Source of the DNA: a virus
Length of the DNA stretch: 35,530 bases
Virus record (IMG/VR): IMGVR_UViG_3300030390_001437
Coordinates: 1-35,530 of that record
Direction: 5' to 3' (one strand)
The position numbers were made by a program, and so were the translations under genes. Below the pieces are notes generated by a model. That model was not told the DNA's origin. It searched no databases and saw nothing but the letters and a program-made list of their open reading frames with translations. Of the stretch, positions 1-35,530 are shown piece by piece (the first letter of the stretch is position 1; each line of letters begins with the position of its first letter).

Positions 1-102
1 ATGTATTGTTGCAAAGTGATATTCGCTATCTGTCAACACAAAATCATCTTCATCGGTAGGTGGTAAACTTGGTTCATCTCTGTCGCATGTTATTTTGCCA
101 CC
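1..102. repeat. 102-bp terminal direct repeat, left copy
   Basis: The first 102 bases recur at 35429-35530 with one difference (C at 99, A at 35527). Joining the copies restores an uninterrupted reading frame with a good ribosome-binding site, so the contig closes into a circle. The headful-type packaging genes suggest an assembly overlap of a circularly permuted genome rather than a true fixed terminal repeat, but the sequence alone cannot separate these. Confidence 0.95.
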
Positions 103-126
103 AAAAAGTTTAAGTAAGTTACTCAC
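1..126 (-). CDS. Small hypothetical early protein, N-terminal part (continues at the right end)
   Basis: This is the first 42 codons of a 97-residue protein completed by 35261-35428 when the terminal repeats are merged. It starts with GTG at 126, placed after AAGGAGCAATAGCA, the ribosome-binding cassette shared by many small genes here. The N-terminal half is acidic (residues about 15-28 hold many D and E). I do not recognise the family. It is one of a run of short leftward early genes, and the open frame across the join is itself the evidence that the genome is circular. Confidence 0.75.
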   Translation of the reverse strand, partial: MSNLLKLFGGKITCDRDEPSLPPTDEDDFVLTDSEYHFATIH

Positions 127-142
127 TGCTATTGCTCCTTAA

Positions 143-475: not shown

Positions 476-676
476 TTAAACTCTATTAAATGCCACAACT
501 TCAAACTGACCATTAGGTCTAATTTTTTGTAAATCCTGTTTGAATTTTCTACTCATATCATCAAAAACAAAAACGGGTTGTGCAAATATCGAACGATAAC
601 TACCCATAGTTGATTGAAAAGCGCAGCCCTTGCTATCAACACATTTTGCAGCCATAAAATATTGTCTTTTTATCAT
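476..676 (-). CDS. Small hypothetical early protein
   Basis: A 66-residue basic protein with no recognised domain. It starts at ATG 676 after AAGGAGCAATAGCAA, a close copy of the cassette used by its neighbours. It has two cysteines (near residues 12 and 18) but no paired CxxC, so a zinc site is not supported. It sits downstream of the SSB-like gene in the leftward early operon. Confidence 0.65.
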   Translation of the reverse strand: MIKRQYFMAAKCVDSKGCAFQSTMGSYRSIFAQPVFVFDDMSRKFKQDLQKIRPNGQFEVVAFNRV

Positions 677-722
677 TTGCTATTGCTCCTTTGTTGTAGC
701 ACTTCCGTGTGCTTTAATTTAA

Positions 723-1249: not shown

Positions 1250-1988
1250 TAGTTAATCTCTCATGTATTCTTTTAACCATTTCTACGTCATCCATACAAT
1301 AGCCTATTACTTTTTGTGGGTTATCTTGCCATGTGTCGTAAACTTTCGATCCATCCATTCCCTCAGTCTTGCTTTTAATCTTTAGTACCTTGCATAAATT
1401 GTCAGCACTAATTGTATTACCAAACCCAGACCAAGCGGTCATAGTATCAAAACAATTTACACCATGCCTCGCATCTACCCACTTTGCGCCAGAACAAGGT
1501 TTTACACCGTTAATAATTGAGCGCTTCCAAATGAAAGGTAAATCAAACTTAGCTATGTTATGACCTATAAATACAGGCTTTGTTACTTGTGTTCCATGCT
1601 TTGATGTTAATTCGTCTATAGCAATATGAAACTCTTGAAGCATTTCTTCTTCACTAGTCATGTCGCTTATGTTAAATACATATTTTCCCCCGTCAACTAT
1701 CATACAAATACAGGCTATAGGCGCAACATCAGGATTAAAACTTGTCTTTTCCCATTTTAATTGCGCTACTTCTGCGCTTTTAGTCGCTGCCATTTTAGAC
1801 TCCCACTGAGATTTTATATCACCAGCGCTGATAAACTTAGCTGTTTTATCGTCAATACCTAAATCTTTAGCCATTACCCCTTTAGTAATACCGCTAGGAG
1901 CCTTAAAATTAGCCTTAACTTCTTCTAGTAGTTGAGCCTTGTGTTGTTCGTCACTGCGTAGTGTTTCAATGTCAATATAAATATTCAT
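1242..1988 (-). CDS. DEDDy-type 3'-5' exonuclease (DnaQ/PolB-exonuclease-like)
   Basis: This 248-residue protein should remove nucleotides from DNA 3' ends. The three exonuclease motifs are visible: Exo I as YIDIET at residues 4-9, Exo II as GHNIAKFDLPF near 142-152, and Exo III as GYCMDDVEMVKRI near 229-241 with a Tyr four residues before an Asp, the DEDDy arrangement. It matches the stand-alone exonuclease related to the PolB exonuclease domain. About 70 residues between Exo I and the core form a helical insertion. It follows the erf-like gene directly, a common pairing in which the exonuclease makes single strands for annealing. Confidence 0.88.
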   Translation of the reverse strand: MNIYIDIETLRSDEQHKAQLLEEVKANFKAPSGITKGVMAKDLGIDDKTAKFISAGDIKSQWESKMAATKSAEVAQLKWEKTSFNPDVAPIACICMIVDGGKYVFNISDMTSEEEMLQEFHIAIDELTSKHGTQVTKPVFIGHNIAKFDLPFIWKRSIINGVKPCSGAKWVDARHGVNCFDTMTAWSGFGNTISADNLCKVLKIKSKTEGMDGSKVYDTWQDNPQKVIGYCMDDVEMVKRIHERLTNA

Positions 1989-2500
1989 TATAAAAACCCT
2001 TTTATTTTATTTCTGTATTGTAAATCTTCAATAGCTTCAAGTGTTGTTTCACCGCTTTTAATTGCGTTAACCCATGATAAATCGTTACCTGTTGGCTGAT
2101 TGCTATTACTGCTATTATCCATGCTGTCAGCGTCTTTTGTATCGTCAATTAACAACAATCCATTTAAAGCATACTTTCTAGCATAGCTACTTGCTGTGCC
2201 TGTAATTTGTGAATCGTCCATACCTTTTTTAGTTAGTGATTCTCTTGCGAATGCTTGATTACTAATTGAGTTTTCGCCATCTGTAATCGTTGCTGTAGAC
2301 TTAACATAGATGCGATCACCAATTATCTGTATATCATCATTAACAGTTAACACCAAGTCACCAAGTAAAGGCTTTACGCCCTCTAAAATATCTTCGCAAG
2401 AACGGTATTTATATTTACCGAATTTGTTAAATTGATTCTTAGGTGCTTTCAGTTTTTGCTGTACCTCAGCAACTTTTTTTATAAATTCTTTATTCATCAT
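1988..2500 (-). CDS. erf: Erf-family single-strand annealing recombinase
   Basis: The product is about 170 residues and matches the ERF superfamily of phage annealases, which pair complementary single strands during recombination and genome circularisation. Diagnostic stretches are FGKYKYRSCEDILEGVKPLL near the N-terminus and ITGTASSYARKYALNGLLLI followed by DDTKDAD. The C-terminal part after about residue 125 is variable and Ser/Asn-rich, as is usual. ATG at 2500 or 2497 is preferred to the in-frame GTG at 2506 because AGGTGG lies just upstream. The start overlaps the preceding small gene, and its stop abuts the exonuclease start. Confidence 0.9.
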   Translation of the reverse strand: MMNKEFIKKVAEVQQKLKAPKNQFNKFGKYKYRSCEDILEGVKPLLGDLVLTVNDDIQIIGDRIYVKSTATITDGENSISNQAFARESLTKKGMDDSQITGTASSYARKYALNGLLLIDDTKDADSMDNSSNSNQPTGNDLSWVNAIKSGETTLEAIEDLQYRNKIKGFL

Positions 2501-4134: not shown

Positions 4135-4752
4135 ATGATTAAAAACAAAAAGTCATTTTTATTACACATTGATAGCCTTGATGTACTCGATGATTTAACA
4201 AATGGGCAAGCTGGCGTCTTGTTTAAAGCAATAAAAGCGTATCAAAAAAGTGAAGTTTTTGACCTAGATAGTGTAGTTAAGGTTGCTTTCTCACCATTTA
4301 AAAACCAGTTTGAAAGGGATAATGAAAAGTATGAAAAACTGTGTGAAAAGAACAGGTTAATAGCAGAAAAAAGGCATTCTACCAAAAGTACCAGTGGTAC
4401 ATCAGGTAACCAAGCGTTACCAGAGTGTACCAAATCTACCGATAATGATAGTGATAGTGATAGTGATAGTGATAGTGATAGTGATAGTGATAATAATATA
4501 AACCACTTGTCAGTTGTCACTGACGGATTTAACCACTGGTGGAATTTATACCCGTCAACAAGACGAGTTAACAAAAAAGGTTGTTTAGTAAAATTTAAAT
4601 CCAAATGTAAAAATTTATCAGATGAAAAAATTATCGACTTGGTAAATTTAATCTCAGATGATATTGACAAGAAACTAAAAGAATTAGACGATGTTAAATT
4701 CATGACAACAACAACAACATACTTAAATCAGGAGAGATACAACGATGAATAA
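4135..4752 (+). CDS. Putative phage replication initiation protein with a Ser-Asp repeat
   Basis: The product is 205 residues. Residues 1-75 (FLLHIDSLDVLDDLTNGQAG, then FSPFKNQFERDNEKYEKLCEKNR) resemble the DUF6291 domain found in phage replication modules. A Ser/Asp repeat (about residues 103-119) links to a C-terminal domain (about 128-205) with HWWNLYPSTRRVNKKG and ending TTTTTYLNQERYNDE, like replication proteins that load the helicase. Its last codons overlap the helicase start, supporting a joint role. AGAGG lies 9 bases before the ATG. The initiator role is inferred from position and weak resemblance. Confidence 0.7.
   Translation: MIKNKKSFLLHIDSLDVLDDLTNGQAGVLFKAIKAYQKSEVFDLDSVVKVAFSPFKNQFERDNEKYEKLCEKNRLIAEKRHSTKSTSGTSGNQALPECTKSTDNDSDSDSDSDSDSDSDNNINHLSVVTDGFNHWWNLYPSTRRVNKKGCLVKFKSKCKNLSDEKIIDLVNLISDDIDKKLKELDDVKFMTTTTTYLNQERYNDE
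4441..4495. repeat. GTGATA hexamer tandem repeat inside the initiator gene
   Basis: About eight nearly perfect copies of GATAGT run from 4441 to 4495, encoding Asp-Ser dipeptides in frame. Each unit is six bases, so copy-number change keeps the frame. Lambda keeps its origin iterons inside the initiator gene O, so this may be an origin; alternatively it is only a flexible linker. Confidence 0.9.
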
Positions 4753-7144: not shown

Positions 7145-7495
7145 ATGAGTAGTACAATAGAAATAAATGGCGAAACATACGTGAAGCAATCAGATATAGT
7201 TCAAAAGCCGAAAGGTGATTATGTAGTAATTCGAACTTATAGTGCTGGTGTACACTGCGGTTATTTAAAAAGCCGCAACGGTAAAGAGGTAGTGCTAACA
7301 AATACTAGACGTATTCATACATGGCAAGGTGCTGCGACACTATCACAGATTGCAGGGGATGGCATAAGCAAACCTAAGGAATGCAAGTTGCCCGCCCCTA
7401 TTGAAGAAATACTTCTTACTGAGGCTATTGAAATTATACCCTGCACTAAAGAGGCACAAAAAATCATTGAAGGCATTCCAGTATGGAAAGTATAG
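7145..7495 (+). CDS. DUF6948-like phage protein
   Basis: The 116-residue product contains VVIRTYSAGVHCGYLKSRNG, TRRIHTWQGAATLSQIA and LLTEAIEIIPCTKEA, a pattern I recall from the DUF6948 phage family of unknown function. ATG 7145 follows AAAGGGTAAAAAA and fits better than an upstream in-frame start at 7079, which lies on the predicted promoter. Its last codons overlap the start of the Gly-rich repeat gene. The fold looks like a small beta-barrel; a role in DNA or RNA handling is conceivable but unproven. Confidence 0.75.
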   Translation: MSSTIEINGETYVKQSDIVQKPKGDYVVIRTYSAGVHCGYLKSRNGKEVVLTNTRRIHTWQGAATLSQIAGDGISKPKECKLPAPIEEILLTEAIEIIPCTKEAQKIIEGIPVWKV

Positions 7496-7725
7496 ATTTT
7501 AAAGGCTCTGGCGATAGCTATGACTCTGGCGATAGCTCTGGCTATAGCTCTGGCTATGGCTATAGCTCTGGCTATGGCTCTGGCTCTGGCTCTGGCGATA
7601 GCTATGACTCTGGCGATCGCTATGGCTATGGCTGGGGCTCTGGCTCTGGCGATAGCTATGGCTATGGCTGTGGCTCTGGCTCTAGCTCTGGCTATGGCGA
7701 TGTCGATGGCTCTGGCTGTGGCTAA
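7483..7725 (+). CDS. Gly/Ser/Tyr/Asp dipeptide-repeat protein
   Basis: An 80-residue protein made almost only of Gly-Ser, Gly-Tyr and Gly-Asp pairs after a short leader MESIDFKG. It starts at ATG 7483 inside the DUF6948-like gene, with AAGG nine bases upstream. No fold is expected; such sequences are disordered and could condense or bind RNA, which is speculative. Similar dipeptide-repeat genes next to this neighbour occur in other phages as far as I recall. The real possibility remains that the DNA repeat, not the peptide, matters. Confidence 0.55.
   Translation: MESIDFKGSGDSYDSGDSSGYSSGYGYSSGYGSGSGSGDSYDSGDRYGYGWGSGSGDSYGYGCGSGSSSGYGDVDGSGCG
7503..7725. repeat. Imperfect GGCNNT hexanucleotide repeat array
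   Basis: About 220 bases are built from hexamers of the form GGC(T/G)(C/A)T with interspersed (A)GCTAT units. A 30-bp stretch at 7504-7533 recurs exactly at 7588-7617. The array is free of stop codons in several frames on both strands, a by-product of its composition. Confidence 0.9.
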
Positions 7726-7728
7726 ATT

Positions 7729-7745
7729 AAACGGGCGCATAGCGC
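7729..7745. other. Perfect GC hairpin between repeat gene and HTH gene
   Basis: GGGCGC and GCGCCC flank a three-base ATA loop just after the stop of the repeat gene. No T-run follows, so it is not a standard terminator; it could stabilise the upstream transcript or mark an RNA processing site. Confidence 0.5.
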
Positions 7746-7768
7746 CCACAACAACAAAAAGGAATAAT

Positions 7769-7951
7769 ATGAAATTCACAGAGTTACAAAAACAAGCAGG
7801 TTTAAGTAATAAAGAAACAGCCGAGTTATTAGGCGTGTCACTTAGGACTGTTCAGCGTTGGGTTAAGGGCGATACATCTGCACATAAATCAGCAATGTAT
7901 TTACTACAAAATCATATTAACAGTGGGAACTGGTATGGATTACAGGACTAA
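7769..7951 (+). CDS. Small HTH DNA-binding protein
   Basis: A 60-residue protein with a textbook helix-turn-helix, ETAELLGVSLRTVQRWVKGD (residues 16-35), preceded by a helix. ATG 7769 is set by AAAGGAATAAT; upstream in-frame coding potential is only the hexamer repeat read in another frame. The C-terminal helix (SAMYLLQNHINSG) may mediate dimerisation. As part of the middle operon it may regulate late or middle genes. Confidence 0.8.
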   Translation: MKFTELQKQAGLSNKETAELLGVSLRTVQRWVKGDTSAHKSAMYLLQNHINSGNWYGLQD

Positions 7952-8027
7952 AGAAGAAATAAAGATAGTCAAGGTTGCGCTAGTAATGCTAGTGTGTGAA
8001 TTAATTTTTTTGGTGTTTATCGCATGA
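7935..8027 (+). CDS. 30-residue single-pass membrane peptide
   Basis: MDYRTKEEIKIVKV is followed by a hydrophobic run (ALVMLVCELIFLVFIA) to the C-terminus, so it is probably a small membrane peptide with its N-terminus in the cytoplasm. The start lies in the preceding HTH gene, and the stop overlaps the next start as ATGA, which supports real coupled translation. Its size and form recall small phage inhibitors or lysis modulators; function unknown. Confidence 0.55.
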   Translation: MDYRTKEEIKIVKVALVMLVCELIFLVFIA

Positions 8028-24862: not shown

Positions 24863-24976
24863 ATGGAAACAGAAATACTTAAAAATATAATCTCTATTGC
24901 CTTTGCTGTGAATGGGGTTTTAGTCTTAACCGCTGCGTGTATTAGATTGGTTATTTGGATATTAAGGGGAGAATAA
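24863..24976 (+). CDS. 37-residue single-pass membrane peptide
   Basis: METEILKNIISIAF leads into a hydrophobic stretch (AVNGVLVLTAACIRLVIWIL) with a short basic end. GGGA lies seven bases before the ATG. First gene of the rightward accessory block and divergent from portal. Small membrane peptides of this kind are often host-directed; function unknown. Confidence 0.6.
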   Translation: METEILKNIISIAFAVNGVLVLTAACIRLVIWILRGE

Positions 24977-24979
24977 AAA

Positions 24980-25063
24980 ATGACTATGGATGCTGTAGCT
25001 AACGCTATAAATAAAAAATTGCATGATTTAGATTATGAGTTAAAGGAATCCAATGATAAATAA
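24980..25063 (+). CDS. 27-residue peptide
   Basis: A short frame (MTMDAVANAINKKLHDLDYE, then LKESNDK) behind GGGGAGAATAAAAA, starting four bases after the membrane peptide stop and overlapping the next gene start. The strong ribosome site and overlap make translation credible despite its size. No function assigned. Confidence 0.5.
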   Translation: MTMDAVANAINKKLHDLDYELKESNDK

Positions 25064-25673
25064 ATTCACACGAACAATACATAACAAAGGCTGGACAGTT
25101 ACAGAGGCTTGTGAGTATTGGAATATACACTACGATACATACAACAAGCGCTGTAATAACGATAAGTTTGATAATCAGTTAATAAGTATGTGTCGAGGTT
25201 TAGAAAATAAATTAGTGAATATGCAGATATCAGAAATAGAGTTTACAGGCGCAAAGTATCATGACTTAGGGTGTGGTTTGTATTTGGATGAATTGCCTGA
25301 TGGGCATTACAAAAAAGACAATGATATTTACGTTAAAACAAGTGAGCATTACCTTGATTATAAATCAAAAGAAATAGTAAAAATGCAGGATAGTAAAATC
25401 AAGCGCGTAGTAAATATTATTGAGCGCCTATCTGCTGACAATGGCGTAAAAGTTAATTTGAGGGTTTGCGACGAACTTTTTAGAACCTCACCGCATAACG
25501 TTGAAGTTTGGGACTTGGAGCTGACGTATAATGATTACCACTTAATAGAGAGGTTCAACAGTAATACGCCAATACTCGACAAGCAAGATTCTTGTGAAAA
25601 AATAGCAGTTAACTTGCTTGCTTCATTGTTCGGTGATTACTACGCAAGTAAAGCCAAAAAGGTAAACAGTTAA
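25053..25673 (+). CDS. Hypothetical protein with N-terminal HTH-like segment
   Basis: The 206-residue protein starts with NKGWTVTEACEYWNIHYDTY, which reads like a short helix-turn-helix that recognises a site, followed by an RGLENKL helix. The remainder (about 65-206) shows no recognised motif; it contains CGLYLDELPDGHYKKDNDIY and a helical C-terminus ending in basic residues. AAAGGA precedes ATG 25053. As the largest accessory-block gene it may regulate this block, which is inference. Confidence 0.7.
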   Translation: MINKFTRTIHNKGWTVTEACEYWNIHYDTYNKRCNNDKFDNQLISMCRGLENKLVNMQISEIEFTGAKYHDLGCGLYLDELPDGHYKKDNDIYVKTSEHYLDYKSKEIVKMQDSKIKRVVNIIERLSADNGVKVNLRVCDELFRTSPHNVEVWDLELTYNDYHLIERFNSNTPILDKQDSCEKIAVNLLASLFGDYYASKAKKVNS

Positions 25674-25739
25674 CTGCTGAACAATGAACTCAACTTTTTA
25701 GGAGTAAGTAAAAATTGAACACAATAGAGGTTAATAGCA

Positions 25740-25913
25740 ATGAGTGAATTAAAAAGAGTATGGACAATTTTTAAAGATTCATCAATGAAAGATAGAGATA
25801 TGCAAAAAGCTTTTTATAGGGCTGTAACACCCAATGCTTGCATTGAGCTTTTGGAAAAAAACGAAAAGCTGTTAACAGAAAACGCAGAGCTAAAGCAACG
25901 AATTAAGGAGTAA
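25740..25913 (+). CDS. Small protein ending in a leucine-zipper-like helix
   Basis: A 57-residue protein whose C-terminus, IELLEKNEKLLTENAELKQR, is a short coiled coil. A 24-base stretch of this part (25872-25895) is identical on the opposite strand at 35324-35347, in the gene crossing the window join. Its stop lies in the ribosome-binding cassette of the next gene. Possible dimerising regulator or anti-host peptide; unknown. Confidence 0.65.
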   Translation: MSELKRVWTIFKDSSMKDRDMQKAFYRAVTPNACIELLEKNEKLLTENAELKQRIKE

Positions 25914-25918
25914 TAGCA

Positions 25919-26146
25919 ATGAGTAAATGGATAAGTGTAGAAGATGAATTGCCAGAAGTAAAAGATGATAGCGTTTTGGTTCATTTTGAAAATGGTAGCA
26001 TTGAAACTGTACATTTAGAATGGTTTGACGACATTACATGCGGATTGGGTGAGGACGATGAGCAATTATATTGTAAAAGATTTACAAATCACAATCCTAA
26101 ATTTACACACTGGATGTCATTACCAGAGCCACCAGAGGAGCAATAG
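25919..26146 (+). CDS. DUF551-family small protein
   Basis: A 75-residue protein with the DUF551 pattern: MSKWISVEDELPEVKDDSVL at the start and THWMSLPEPPEEQ at the end. This is a common phage accessory protein of unknown function. Its final codons, GAG-CAA-TAG, form part of the ribosome site of the next gene. Confidence 0.88.
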   Translation: MSKWISVEDELPEVKDDSVLVHFENGSIETVHLEWFDDITCGLGEDDEQLYCKRFTNHNPKFTHWMSLPEPPEEQ

Positions 26147-26148
26147 CA

Positions 26149-26544
26149 ATGAGTGATAACGAAAGGGTAATAAAATTCATAGTAGATATAGCAAGCTGCT
26201 ATCGATTATCCCCGCAAGATTATGACGAGGCCGCGTCCTTGCTTGTTAAGTACAGAGGTGTAACTTGTGATAAGCAAGAAACAAAAGAAGTTAAAGAAGA
26301 TTTAGTAAACAACCCTAAGCATTATATGCTATTTGCCGATGGTACAGAGTCTTTCGATGTTATACGTAAAACTTTAACGCCAGAAGAATTTATAGGATTC
26401 CTTAAAGGTAATATTCTTAAATATCGCCTTAGAGCTGGTAAAAAAGGCGGCGCTAGTATTTGTATTGCCAAAAGTGATTGGTACGCGAACAAGCTTGTTG
26501 AGTTGCAAGACGATATACCATCTTTTAAAACTTATAAGGATTAA
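26149..26544 (+). CDS. DUF3310 protein (T7 gp1.7-related)
   Basis: The 131-residue protein has a variable N-terminus followed by the DUF3310 domain (about 53-130): VNNPKHYMLFADGTESFDVI, then LKGNILKYRLRAGKKGG and KSDWYANKLVEL. The domain occurs in T7 gp1.7, a nucleotide kinase, and in many small phage proteins. The Walker motif is absent here and in relatives, so kinase activity is only suggested by the family. GAGGAGCAATAGCA precedes the ATG. Confidence 0.85.
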   Translation: MSDNERVIKFIVDIASCYRLSPQDYDEAASLLVKYRGVTCDKQETKEVKEDLVNNPKHYMLFADGTESFDVIRKTLTPEEFIGFLKGNILKYRLRAGKKGGASICIAKSDWYANKLVELQDDIPSFKTYKD

Positions 26545-26548
26545 TACA

Positions 26549-26707
26549 ATGATTGAATATGTAATTTTTAGTTACGCGTTTATGTTTTTATTAACTATTT
26601 ACAGTGTAACCATATGGAATGGTAGCTTATCCGAGTGTATAAAGTGGTGGGTGTTCTCACCAATTAGTATGCCTATTTTTATTATCTGTTATTTGGTGGA
26701 AAGATGA
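26549..26707 (+). CDS. Small two-segment membrane protein
   Basis: A 52-residue protein with two hydrophobic segments: about 4-21 (YVIFSYAFMFLLTIYSVTIW) and 34-49 (WVFSPISMPIFIICYLV). AAGGATTAATAC precedes the ATG, and the stop overlaps the next start (ATGA). It could be a holin-like or superinfection-type membrane peptide, but nothing specific is visible. Confidence 0.65.
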   Translation: MIEYVIFSYAFMFLLTIYSVTIWNGSLSECIKWWVFSPISMPIFIICYLVER

Positions 26708-26874
26708 AAAAACTTAGAGTGTTTAAATGCCTTTGCGGTCAACGTATCGAGCGACTAGTTAAAGATAATGTGCGTGTGGTTAAGTGTGAGTGCGGCAAAG
26801 ATGCCGAGCGTACATTATCAGCGCCTAGATGTTTCGGTAATACAACGGGCAGTAGTCCAAGTGTGAGGTATTAA
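26704..26874 (+). CDS. Small zinc-ribbon protein
   Basis: A 56-residue basic protein with CLCGQ (residues 9-13) and CECGK (28-32), a Cys4 ribbon like those in FmdB-type small proteins, followed by TLSAPRCFGNTTG. It overlaps its neighbours by ATGA at the start and TAATG at the end. Role unknown. Confidence 0.72.
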   Translation: MKKLRVFKCLCGQRIERLVKDNVRVVKCECGKDAERTLSAPRCFGNTTGSSPSVRY

Positions 26875-27173
26875 TGTTCCGTATTAAAATATGCTATCAC
26901 ATAAAAGATAACTGGATTAGAGCAAGACTAACAAGTAAAAACTTTAATAAGTTCACTTATACTGCTGGCAATACTTATATCATAAGGAATAACAATCAAC
27001 ATTGGGATGAGTTTTTGTATCAACTTAAAAAAAGTTGTAATGAAATAATCAGAGATGAGTTATTTCGCAAGTATGGCAAAGATTGGCGCAAGTACGAGCA
27101 ACCAAAGCTAGTTTGGAACTCATACATAAGCGCGATAAATAGAATGCAGCCCGGGCATATTAATAATGATTAG
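26874..27173 (+). CDS. Hypothetical basic protein at the end of the accessory block
   Basis: A 99-residue basic protein (MFRIKICYHIKDNWIRARLT at the start). GAGG lies five bases before the ATG. Its 3' end overlaps the convergent terminase large subunit by 14 bases, with no terminator between. No family recognised. Confidence 0.6.
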   Translation: MFRIKICYHIKDNWIRARLTSKNFNKFTYTAGNTYIIRNNNQHWDEFLYQLKKSCNEIIRDELFRKYGKDWRKYEQPKLVWNSYISAINRMQPGHINND

Positions 27174-34054: not shown

Positions 34055-34083
34055 ATTATACCCGAATTATTTCTAAATCAAAA
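34055..34083 (-). promoter_or_regulatory. Predicted late promoter
   Basis: A perfect -10 TATAAT (34055-34060 on the minus strand) with TTTTGA (34078-34083) 17 bases upstream. It lies at the end of the DUF5675 gene and upstream of the second late block. The -10 context GGTATAATA equals that upstream of portal. Confidence 0.5.
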
Positions 34084-34445
34084 TCTTTGCCGTTAGCTGT
34101 TATCATAAAGCGATTGTAAGCGCTTTTACTACTAAGTCCTGCCCATTCGCTATTAATGATACCGTAGTCTGCCACAGGAGCTATACAGCCTTGTAATTCA
34201 CTAGCCCTGTTAGCTTTGTGAAATAATATGTGGGTTCGTCCGTCAACATTATTAACTTGATAAGTTAAGCCGAATCTTGGGCTATTAGTTATTGAGCACT
34301 TATAATTACCTGCTGGTATGCAGCTAATATTAACTTTATTATCTAGCCATTCGCGTTCGATAGTATTACAGATAAATGCTTCATTGAAATAAAACTTACC
34401 TAATGTGCAGGTATTTGTACTAAATGTTTTTAGTATTGCTTTCAT
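34056..34445 (-). CDS. DUF5675-family protein, candidate peptidoglycan-acting enzyme
   Basis: The 129-residue protein has the family signature ISCIPAGNYKCSITNSPRFG, then DGRTHILFHKANRASELQGC with the following IAPVADYG. The HFHK...GC layout, a His and a downstream Gly-Cys, is reminiscent of L,D-transpeptidase active sites, but the family's activity is not established to my knowledge. It is the last gene of the leftward early operon. AAGGAGTAATAGCAA precedes ATG 34445. Confidence 0.75.
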   Translation of the reverse strand: MKAILKTFSTNTCTLGKFYFNEAFICNTIEREWLDNKVNISCIPAGNYKCSITNSPRFGLTYQVNNVDGRTHILFHKANRASELQGCIAPVADYGIINSEWAGLSSKSAYNRFMITANGKDFDLEIIRV

Positions 34446-34459
34446 TTGCTATTACTCCT
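34415..34459. repeat. 45-bp direct repeat, copy 1 (leader and first codons)
   Basis: Matches 35036-35080 at 42 of 45 positions. It covers the ribosome-binding cassette and the first nine or ten codons of the DUF5675 gene, giving both genes the N-terminus MK(A/P)xLKTFST. Confidence 0.9.
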
Positions 34460-34796
34460 TGTTAGCTTCAATTATCGCTAGACATATAGCGCGTTGAGGA
34501 TCTTTATTCCCATAACCTTTGTTTAGGTACATATCAGGCGCACCATATACATCATACTTTTTTATTGGTGTAGCTAAGAAATGCCCTCCCTTCATTGGCG
34601 TTAGCTCTATCTTGTACTTAATCATCAAATAAAAACATAAGGCTTTGTCGGTTAGTGGATTGTACACATCCGTCAGTTTATCTTTTATTGCATTGGCTGG
34701 ATCTTTGGGGAGTATCTTTTTGTTTTGTATTTGAAAATCAATATCCTCAATCTCTGCAATACGTTTACATATTTCTAAGCCTGTTAATTCAGTCAT
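34452..34796 (-). CDS. Phage ABA-sandwich (DUF2591-like) protein
   Basis: A 114-residue protein with the typical pattern LTGLEICKRIAEIEDIDFQI, VYNPLTDKALCFYLMIKYKI and YGNKDPQRAICLAIIEANKE, as in the phage ABA sandwich family. Function unknown. It ends KE-stop inside the cassette that starts the next gene, and its own start follows AAGGAGTAATAGTA. Confidence 0.85.
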   Translation of the reverse strand: MTELTGLEICKRIAEIEDIDFQIQNKKILPKDPANAIKDKLTDVYNPLTDKALCFYLMIKYKIELTPMKGGHFLATPIKKYDVYGAPDMYLNKGYGNKDPQRAICLAIIEANKE

Positions 34797-34808
34797 TACT
34801 ATTACTCC

Positions 34809-35066
34809 TTACCACTCCAAACCTCTAACGTTAAATTTTTTCTTACAAATTCCACATGTAATATCTTCACACTCAAAATCTTCATGTGTGCTATTTTTAG
34901 GAAACATTTGCCTTATCAAATAACCATCATCATTATGACAATATCTGTTGGTATCACCTTCATTTAAAAGATCAATTAAATAGTCACAATGTGGACAGTT
35001 TACAAGCATTTCAATGTCTAAATGTGCTCTTACTGTTGTACTAAATGTTTTTAATGTTGGTTTCAT
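34809..35066 (-). CDS. Small zinc-ribbon protein
   Basis: An 85-residue protein with CPHC (about 24-27) and CGICKK (about 71-76), a probable zinc ribbon. Its N-terminus MKPTLKTFST is nearly the same as that of the DUF5675 gene because of a 45-bp repeat. Start after AGGAGTAATAGCAA. Function unknown. Confidence 0.72.
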   Translation of the reverse strand: MKPTLKTFSTTVRAHLDIEMLVNCPHCDYLIDLLNEGDTNRYCHNDDGYLIRQMFPKNSTHEDFECEDITCGICKKKFNVRGLEW

Positions 35067-35080
35067 TTGCTATTACTCCT
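35036..35080. repeat. 45-bp direct repeat, copy 2 (leader and first codons)
   Basis: Second copy of the repeat at 34415-34459. It joins the ribosome-binding cassette to the first codons of the zinc-ribbon gene at 35066, where the homology stops abruptly. Confidence 0.9.
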
Positions 35081-35258
35081 ATGCTGTTAAACCCGCTACA
35101 CATGCTAGCCACATTTTAGCATGGTGTTCAGCCTTTCTATCTCTCGGCTTTTTGTATTTTTCAGGATTGTCACGTTGATCTTTTTCAAGTGCCAAACGCT
35201 CTTGGTGCTTTTGGTTAAACTCAATAGCACGTTGCTTTTTTAACTGATTATTACTCAT
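35079..35258 (-). CDS. Small charged hypothetical protein
   Basis: A 59-residue, Lys/Arg/Gln-rich protein (NNQLKKQRAIEFNQKHQERL, then KPRDRKAEHHAKMWLACVAG). ATG 35258 follows AAAGGAGCAATAGCA; an in-frame GTG-like longer start at 35303 would lie in the upstream gene. Its stop TAG overlaps the next ribosome site. No family recognised. Confidence 0.7.
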   Translation of the reverse strand: MSNNQLKKQRAIEFNQKHQERLALEKDQRDNPEKYKKPRDRKAEHHAKMWLACVAGLTA

Positions 35259-35260
35259 TG

Positions 35261-35530
35261 CTATTGCTCCTTTGGTGGTCTGGGTGCACCGATTAGTCTG
35301 CAATTATGCTCATATATGCGATTCTTTAGCTCTGCGTTTTCTGTTAATAAATTCTCATAACTATTAACAGCATTAACAATGTACTGCGCTCGCATTCCTG
35401 CTAGTCCATCGTCATGTGCTAAACTGCTATGTATTGTTGCAAAGTGATATTCGCTATCTGTCAACACAAAATCATCTTCATCGGTAGGTGGTAAACTTGG
35501 TTCATCTCTGTCGCATGTTATTTTGCAACC
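35261..35530 (-). CDS. Small coiled-coil early protein, C-terminal part (start lies at the left end)
   Basis: This is the right-end portion of the 97-residue protein that begins at 126 on the left. The C-terminal half has SYENLLTENAELKNRIYE, a short leucine-zipper-like helix, then APRPPKEQ-stop. Twenty-four bases encoding the zipper (35324-35347) are an exact inverted copy of 25872-25895. The last codons AAG-GAG-CAA-TAG supply the ribosome site for the gene at 35258. Confidence 0.75.
   Translation of the reverse strand, partial: GCKITCDRDEPSLPPTDEDDFVLTDSEYHFATIHSSLAHDDGLAGMRAQYIVNAVNSYENLLTENAELKNRIYEHNCRLIGAPRPPKEQ
35429..35530. repeat. 102-bp terminal direct repeat, right copy
   Basis: Right copy of the terminal repeat, 101 of 102 positions identical to bases 1-102. 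The single mismatch lies four bases from the window end, where sequencing or assembly error is most likely. It lies inside the leftward small gene that crosses the join. Confidence 0.95.

Follow-up and report, generated by a model that had tools for sequence, protein, structure and literature searches.

Short translational joints between small accessory genes in a marine tailed phage and in uncultured phages: probable sites of cassette exchange

In integrons, interchangeable single-gene cassettes stand in arrays and are separated by a common sequence. In the lambdoid nin region, small accessory genes lie close together and their stop and start codons are fused (ATGA). For lambdoid boundary sequences, which are short conserved sequences at the borders of mosaic modules, homologous recombination has been proposed; boundary sequences are said to be absent at most mosaic borders (PMC3029335). 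The SAS of cluster K mycobacteriophages have been proposed to be regulatory start sequences (PMC3203893, PMC12699233). SAS/ESAS are short asymmetric repeats with an AGGAG core and conserved bases outside the Shine-Dalgarno (SD) sequence, which lie a few bases before non-structural starts in many copies per genome, sometimes with the upstream stop inside, and the element reported here resembles them in all these points (PMC3203893). The promoter-stem-loop (PeSL) cassettes of T4-type phages contain a repeated intergenic regulatory element that is reported to shuffle accessory genes (Arbiol 2010, Comeau 2014). Here we describe a joint that is related to boundary sequences, SAS and PeSLs but represents a distinct variant with unusually clear intermediates.

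The window, by which we mean the whole stretch of DNA analysed, is the 35,530-bp IMG/VR record IMGVR_UViG_3300030390_001437 of a marine tailed phage (virus). This record, classed as linear, is circular, as its positions 1-102 overlap 35429-35530 (102 bp, one mismatch). Terminal repeats of 99-144 bp are also present in three portal relatives, and the window and these three are circular or permuted genomes. Genes for a head module are present in the window (terminase, portal, major head protein and head closure), along with genes for a DnaB helicase, for NinG and for an annealing protein of the Erf type. Pseudoalteromonas phage H6/1 has a terminase that is 75% identical to the one encoded in the window, and Vibrio phage 1.182.O one that is 66% identical, identities from which a marine gammaproteobacterium appears the likely host. 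Two repeats were also seen in the window. A degenerate 220-bp tandem repeat (7504-7724) of GGCTCTGGCTATAGC-type units, with several frames open, continues into the N-terminal coding part of a small protein that is helix-turn-helix-like (MTLAIALAIALAMAIALAM...), and a near-perfect GATAGT hexamer repeat of 8.7 copies (4441-4492), a possible length-variable locus, specifies an (SD)n linker in the product of the gene that precedes DnaB.

Table 1 Positions of the joints, cassettes and candidate recombinase gene in the window
Feature	Position	Strand	Evidence or remark
Joint A (128-140) + GTG start 126, 97-aa cassette crossing junction to 35261	1..140	-	
Joint A (449-461, one mismatch) + cassette 445, 100 aa	146..461	-	no family match
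Joint A (679-691) + cassette 676, 66 aa, MIKRQYFMAAK...	479..691	-	exact motif
Erf-type single-strand annealing protein, candidate recombinase	1988..2497	-	PF04404 E=4.9e-37, phrog_155
Joint B (CAATAGAGGTTAATAG at 25722, within ATTGAACACAATAGAGGTTAATAGCAATGAGTGAATTAAAAA) + cassette 25740, 57 aa	25708..25913	+	
Joint A (25905-25917) + cassette 25919, DUF551	25905..26146	+	PF04448 E=2.6e-11
Joint A variant (26135-26147) + cassette 26149, DUF3310	26135..26544	+	PF11753 E=1e-15
Joint A (34448-34460) + cassette 34445, DUF5675	34056..34460	-	PF18925 E=3.9e-30
Joint A variant (34798-34810) + cassette 34796, 114 aa	34452..34810	-	
Joint A variant (35069-35081) + cassette 35066, 85 aa	34809..35081	-	first ten codons copy 34445 start
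Joint A (35260-35272) + cassette 35258, 59 aa, MSNNQLKKQ...	35079..35272	-	
Remainder of 126 cassette	35261..35530	-	stop CAA-TAG inside next joint

A sequence-only reading of the window had described ten small genes, in two clusters on opposite strands, whose starts share one extended ribosome-binding site, and all ten sites were found in place and on the strands it gave. When the ten start regions were aligned on AATAG, this pentamer proved invariant (10/10), as did an A two bases beyond it, and the conservation of AATAG was at least that of the SD bases. Exact AAGGAGYAATAGC occurs at 126, 676, 34445, 35258 and 25919, and one-base variants of it at 445, 34796, 35066 and 26149; these nine start regions correspond to AAGGAGYAATAGCA or differ from it by one or two bases (joint A). 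The tenth, at 25740, is no simple variant of joint A but a sister form (GAACACAATAGAGGTTAATAGCAATGAGTGA; also given as CAATAGAGGTTAATAGCA). Taking the starts with an SD sequence, 28 pairs of start regions were alike at 13 or more of 16 positions, versus a mean of 0.27 after column shuffling, and the median longest identical run was 11 among cassette starts versus 7 among the 43 other starts of the window. Of those 43, a single one, that of accessory gene 26549, matched at three mismatches, and weakly; none of the structural or replication genes among them carries the joint, so the outcome named in advance as contradicting the reading, a joint equally common before core structural genes, did not occur (0 such genes). 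The extended site is confirmed as real and not due to chance.

The two clusters stand as two arrays on opposite strands, but the minus-strand groups need joining: because the ends of the record overlap, 34445-35258 and 126-676 form one seven-gene minus-strand array across the junction, and the second cluster is the plus-strand trio 25740, 25919 and 26149. The fusion of the upstream stop into the joint (GAG-CAA-TAG or GAG-TAA-TAG), also part of the original description, holds for four of the ten starts (35258, 34445, 25919 and 26149) and not for 126, 445, 676 and 25740; at 35066 and 34796 the upstream stop overlaps the first bases of the joint. Homology frequently runs beyond the ATG into ATGAGTRA. 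In the pair 35066/34445 it covers ten codons, with an identical 20-nt run, AGGAGTAATAGCAAATGAAA, and a common N-terminus (MKxxLKTFST), while the remaining protein differs. Genes 126 and 25740, on opposite strands, have an identical 24-nt block in common, and the gene tails of 126 (whose cassette ends ...APRPPKEQ) and 25919 both contain CCACCA(A/G)AGGAGCAATAGCAATGAGT. These shared stretches are what exchange at joints would leave.

The ten accessory starts agree with SAS in that the element is restricted to non-structural genes and lies just upstream of their starts. They differ in the sequence itself, since the 13-bp SAS consensus is GGGATAGGAGCCC and the window joint is AAGGAGYAATAGCA. Moreover, SAS occur mostly at genes with an upstream gap of more than 50 bp, whereas the genes here are tightly packed and 6/10 joints contain or overlap the upstream stop. 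About half of the SAS have 17-bp inverted repeats, and none were seen here on reading the upstream sequence by eye. A further difference is that exchange of genes at the joint is visible here, in the phages described below.

Joint A was absent from 13 relatives of the window (11 contigs, four of them near complete, and two cultured phages), so that the window alone shows repeats and cannot show exchange. Exact joint A was found by scanning in 13 and 29 viral contigs and in 2 genome contigs, in one copy each and before unrelated genes; these lone copies were rejected as a cassette signal, as a single site is just a good ribosome-binding site. No second phage with a joint-A array was found in these viral and genome contigs or among the 13 relatives. 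The DUF551 gene of contig L070 (81% identical) and the DUF5675 gene of L080 have ordinary, differing start regions. In the window, small plus-strand genes occupy 24908-27173 between the minus-strand portal and the minus-strand terminase; relatives keep an HTH-like gene (25053) and a zinc-ribbon-like gene (26704) at this locus and vary in the other small genes, and in L060 and L064 it holds other or fewer small genes with ordinary ribosome sites. Other extended ribosome-site families were seen in H6/1 (L052; AGGAGAGAGTT, four to six times), in G005 and G002 (three each), and in L066, where TTGGAGGATAGGAC occurs three times consecutively (7448-7978). The families in H6/1, G005 and G002 are too small for interpretation; lineage-specific joints may be common, judging from H6/1 and L066.

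A search with the DUF551 cassette led to contig L071, in which the joint found at 25740 is repeated five or six times with differing genes behind. This sister joint (joint B), CAATAGAGGTTAATAG(A/C)ATG, forms arrays of small genes in 12 uncultured phage contigs. The CAATAGAGGTTAATAG scan returned 25 contigs, 12 of them with real arrays, defined as sites followed by small ORFs; the others carry isolated matches without such a gene, in a number that, by our own estimate, chance could give for a 16-mer in such a collection. The prediction that related phages would carry the same joint before different genes was thus borne out by joint B and not by joint A, for which no such relative was found, and the contrary outcome, the same gene order with diverged joints, was not seen. 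A further element, joint C (TTAAATAGGAGTTATAAAC), opens several joint-B arrays, and the arrays mix B and C. At least five arrays (L119, L121, L126, L127 and L129) end in an orphan joint with no gene behind. The orphan joint-B copies have no start codon behind them, and the orphan joint doubles as the stop of the array's last gene; four of them continue as A(C/T)ATAAAAAAGCCCC, a hairpin terminator. A scan for AATAGAYATAAAAAAGCCCC, the element at the array ends, added no array to the four already known, its other matches being unrelated terminators, and blastn of the 39-nt and 31-nt joints against named phages gave matches at chance level. In a more distant relative, L156, a diverged orphan joint (AACACACAGTAGAGAGTAACA) stands directly before a different hairpin terminator (7265-7320).

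Several cassettes of the window recur in these phages. At 25740, the joint and first codons are 97% identical over 38 nt to L071/L126, and the gene body behind differs. Cassette 35258 is 53% identical to an L136 cassette that lies behind joint B and replaces another cassette there. Homologues of cassette 34796, whose weak PHROG matches are of unknown function, occur in L129, L135 and L067 behind other start regions. A gene behind joint B in L113 begins with the residues of cassette 676 (MIKRQYFMA), a likeness confined to the N-terminus, and cassette 676 had no match among named phages. Through DUF551 and the 35258 family, the window cassettes belong to the joint-B pool. Members of the 35258 family differ in their joint, which is A in the window and B in L136. 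This indicates that the joint does not simply travel with its gene and is instead a property of the phage lineage; a cassette might change its joint through, for example, gene conversion among joints.

For all pairs of joint-B contigs, the ends of homology blocks inside arrays were compared with the joints, with 80 bp as the minimal block length. In both partners, 27 of 31 block ends inside arrays fell at a joint, compared with 7.2 expected (query side), and 0 of 100,000 simulations reached 27; all four exceptions lay in the terminator flank. BLAST extends through a shared joint, so that breakpoints at ordinary gene boundaries, too, would be placed at the edge of a joint; the test locates the borders at joints and does not by itself make the joints their cause. 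The genes of all arrays were clustered for cassette comparison. L119, L127 and L129 have flanking genes of 92-95% amino-acid identity (DnaB helicase 95% between L119 and L129; Sak 92-93% among the three), and the cassettes between them differ: the order is F13-MEDKEL-F14-end in L119, F13-F14-F3-end in L127 and four others in L129. What distinguishes L119 from L127 is the gain of one cassette to either side of another that is 95% identical. Between L118 and L136, the left neighbours are 99.2% and the right neighbours 95% identical in nucleotides, and the middle cassettes are unrelated, the one in L136 being the 35258 homologue described above, which has taken the place of the other. Scars of deletion were also found. 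L127 retains, behind joint C, the final 31 bp of a gene that L126 carries whole, and in L119, joints C and B lie about 20 bp apart with only an 11-codon remnant. Together, the block ends and the gain, loss and swap of single cassettes support, for joint B, the earlier proposal of gene-cassette exchange at a short joint.

With 27/31 block ends at the joint, the joint-B phages do carry a short conserved sequence at the borders of mosaic modules, as boundary sequences are defined. In contrast to the ATGA of the nin region, the unit here is 20-45 nt long, combines stop, ribosome-binding site and start, is repeated through the array and leaves an orphan joint at the end. PeSLs, as reported, combine a promoter and a stem-loop, whereas the joint is a translational element; read directly, the joints show neither a promoter nor a stem-loop at most junctions, and a hairpin terminator only at the end of joint-B arrays. 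The arrays resemble those of integrons in their interchangeable single-gene cassettes and common separating sequence, and differ in that general annealing recombination is likely here and the joint is translational. No integrase or tyrosine recombinase was found among the selected window proteins scanned against profiles, and no attC-type structured site was noticed. A literature search for other intergenic joints returned nothing direct.

The reading frames of the joints give some indication of their origin. AACCACCAACACAATAGAGGTTAATAG ends DUF551-type genes as ...KPPTQ and stop, and other genes, in another frame, as ...NHQHNRG and stop; the third frame has no stop within the joint and continues into the start codon. 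Since the same letters are read in two frames, protein function is not what conserves them. Joint A has the same design, its second stop being supplied by ATGAGTRA, and an alignment of A and B takes the form CCACCAA..CAATAG..AATGAGT, the SD sequence lying before or after CAATAG. The DUF551 gene in L126 has a AAGGAGTAAATAACAATGAGTAAATGG leader. From this alignment and leader, we conjecture that the two termini of a DUF551 gene gave rise to the joints.

In the explanation that we propose, the small accessory genes of an array are strung together polycistronically, and a joint of 20-45 nt provides stops in two of three frames for the preceding gene, a ribosome-binding site and the next start codon. 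With near-identical joints at every junction, any two could recombine by homologous annealing, in one genome or between the genomes of two co-infecting phages, and the segment between them would be added, lost or replaced as a whole, still translatable gene. The likely catalyst would be the phage's own annealing protein, Erf in the window and Sak, with YqaJ exonuclease, in the joint-B phages, which encode both near the array. Red and the Erf of phage D3 can use short and diverged homologies for recombination in lambda, and the reported minimal pairing length is 23-27 bp for Red-beta and 31-34 bp for RecA (PMC3945230). The joint-B identities between contigs, of 24-43 nt, are within reach of the Red-beta minimum. 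Joint-A copies, with identical runs of up to 20 nt (median 11), fall below the reported minimum, which leaves two options, help from flanking homology or decay of joint A. Homologous exchange at a translational joint of 20-45 bp is, in our judgement, the probable explanation overall; that the joint served as the recombination homology, and that Erf or Sak did it, is what we infer from the sequences. Against exchange weigh the finding of only one phage with joint-A arrays, which leaves joint A with no series for comparison, the short joint-A runs, the pull of shared joints on block ends, the two different joints of the 35258 family, the metagenomic origin of the contigs and the stop that the orphan joint supplies. 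Exchange is well supported for the joint family, and for the main joint of the window it would follow by analogy, the joint-A arrays having presumably arisen like those of joint B. A broader version, in which a marine phage lineage keeps accessory arrays and a DUF551-derived joint acts as an Erf/Sak recombination adaptor, which would stop incoming genes in two frames, start the following gene and persist as shared homology, integron-like without an integrase, with A and B as lineage alleles, is offered tentatively, as somewhat less probable than its negation.

The joint might instead be conserved for its function, serving co-regulated early accessory genes as a start that is strong or under special regulation and to which a phage factor may bind, and the gene-boundary mosaicism would then be random recombination filtered by selection. 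The joint does contain a good SD sequence at proper spacing and precedes accessory genes only; SAS are distributed alike and read as regulatory (PMC3203893, PMC12699233), and joint A also stands, as a single ribosome-binding site, before unrelated genes in other phages. Yet such a role fits less well with the highest conservation lying outside the SD sequence (AATAG, 10/10), with orphan joint-B copies that lack a start codon, with arrays that mix B and C and homologous cassettes that carry differing joints between phages, with joints that are upstream-gene coding sequence in two frames, and with scars of partly deleted genes between joints. We regard a functional start as an unlikely sole cause of the pattern; a factor that binds the joint and regulates the genes, like the one suggested for SAS, is compatible with exchange.

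Tandem duplication followed by divergence, in which an array grows as a gene and its leader are copied together, the joints being what has changed least between recent paralogues, would account for the ten N-terminal codons common to 34445/35066 and the 24-nt block common to 126/25740. However, proteins within one array are otherwise unrelated by sequence, and near-identical phages differ by whole unrelated genes; duplication is very unlikely as a general account and for joint B is largely excluded. The joint-B contigs are all metagenome assemblies, in which short repeats can yield chimeras, and joints of 24-43 nt are such repeats, so that fragments of different phages could have been joined at them. 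Against such an artefact, the same cassettes, orphan ends and terminators occur in contigs from different metagenomes, partial-gene scars and 2-5% divergence beside breakpoints are not expected of chimeras, and the window is a circularly closed contig. We therefore consider misassembly the least probable of the explanations, scarcely to be expected, and homologous exchange at the joint remains the preferred reading.

It has long been asked whether the sharp gene-boundary mosaics of phages result from random joining followed by selection or from homologous exchange at short boundaries. The phages described here provide a natural series, with a boundary sequence at nearly every border, scars, orphan joints and swaps of single cassettes, and as they themselves encode annealing recombinases, the homologous model becomes directly testable. 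The joint also offers an easy sequence tag by which hypervariable accessory cassettes can be found; in phages, the products of such cassettes often act against the host or its defences. These arrays constitute a strong natural example of phage gene shuffling via short shared sequences.
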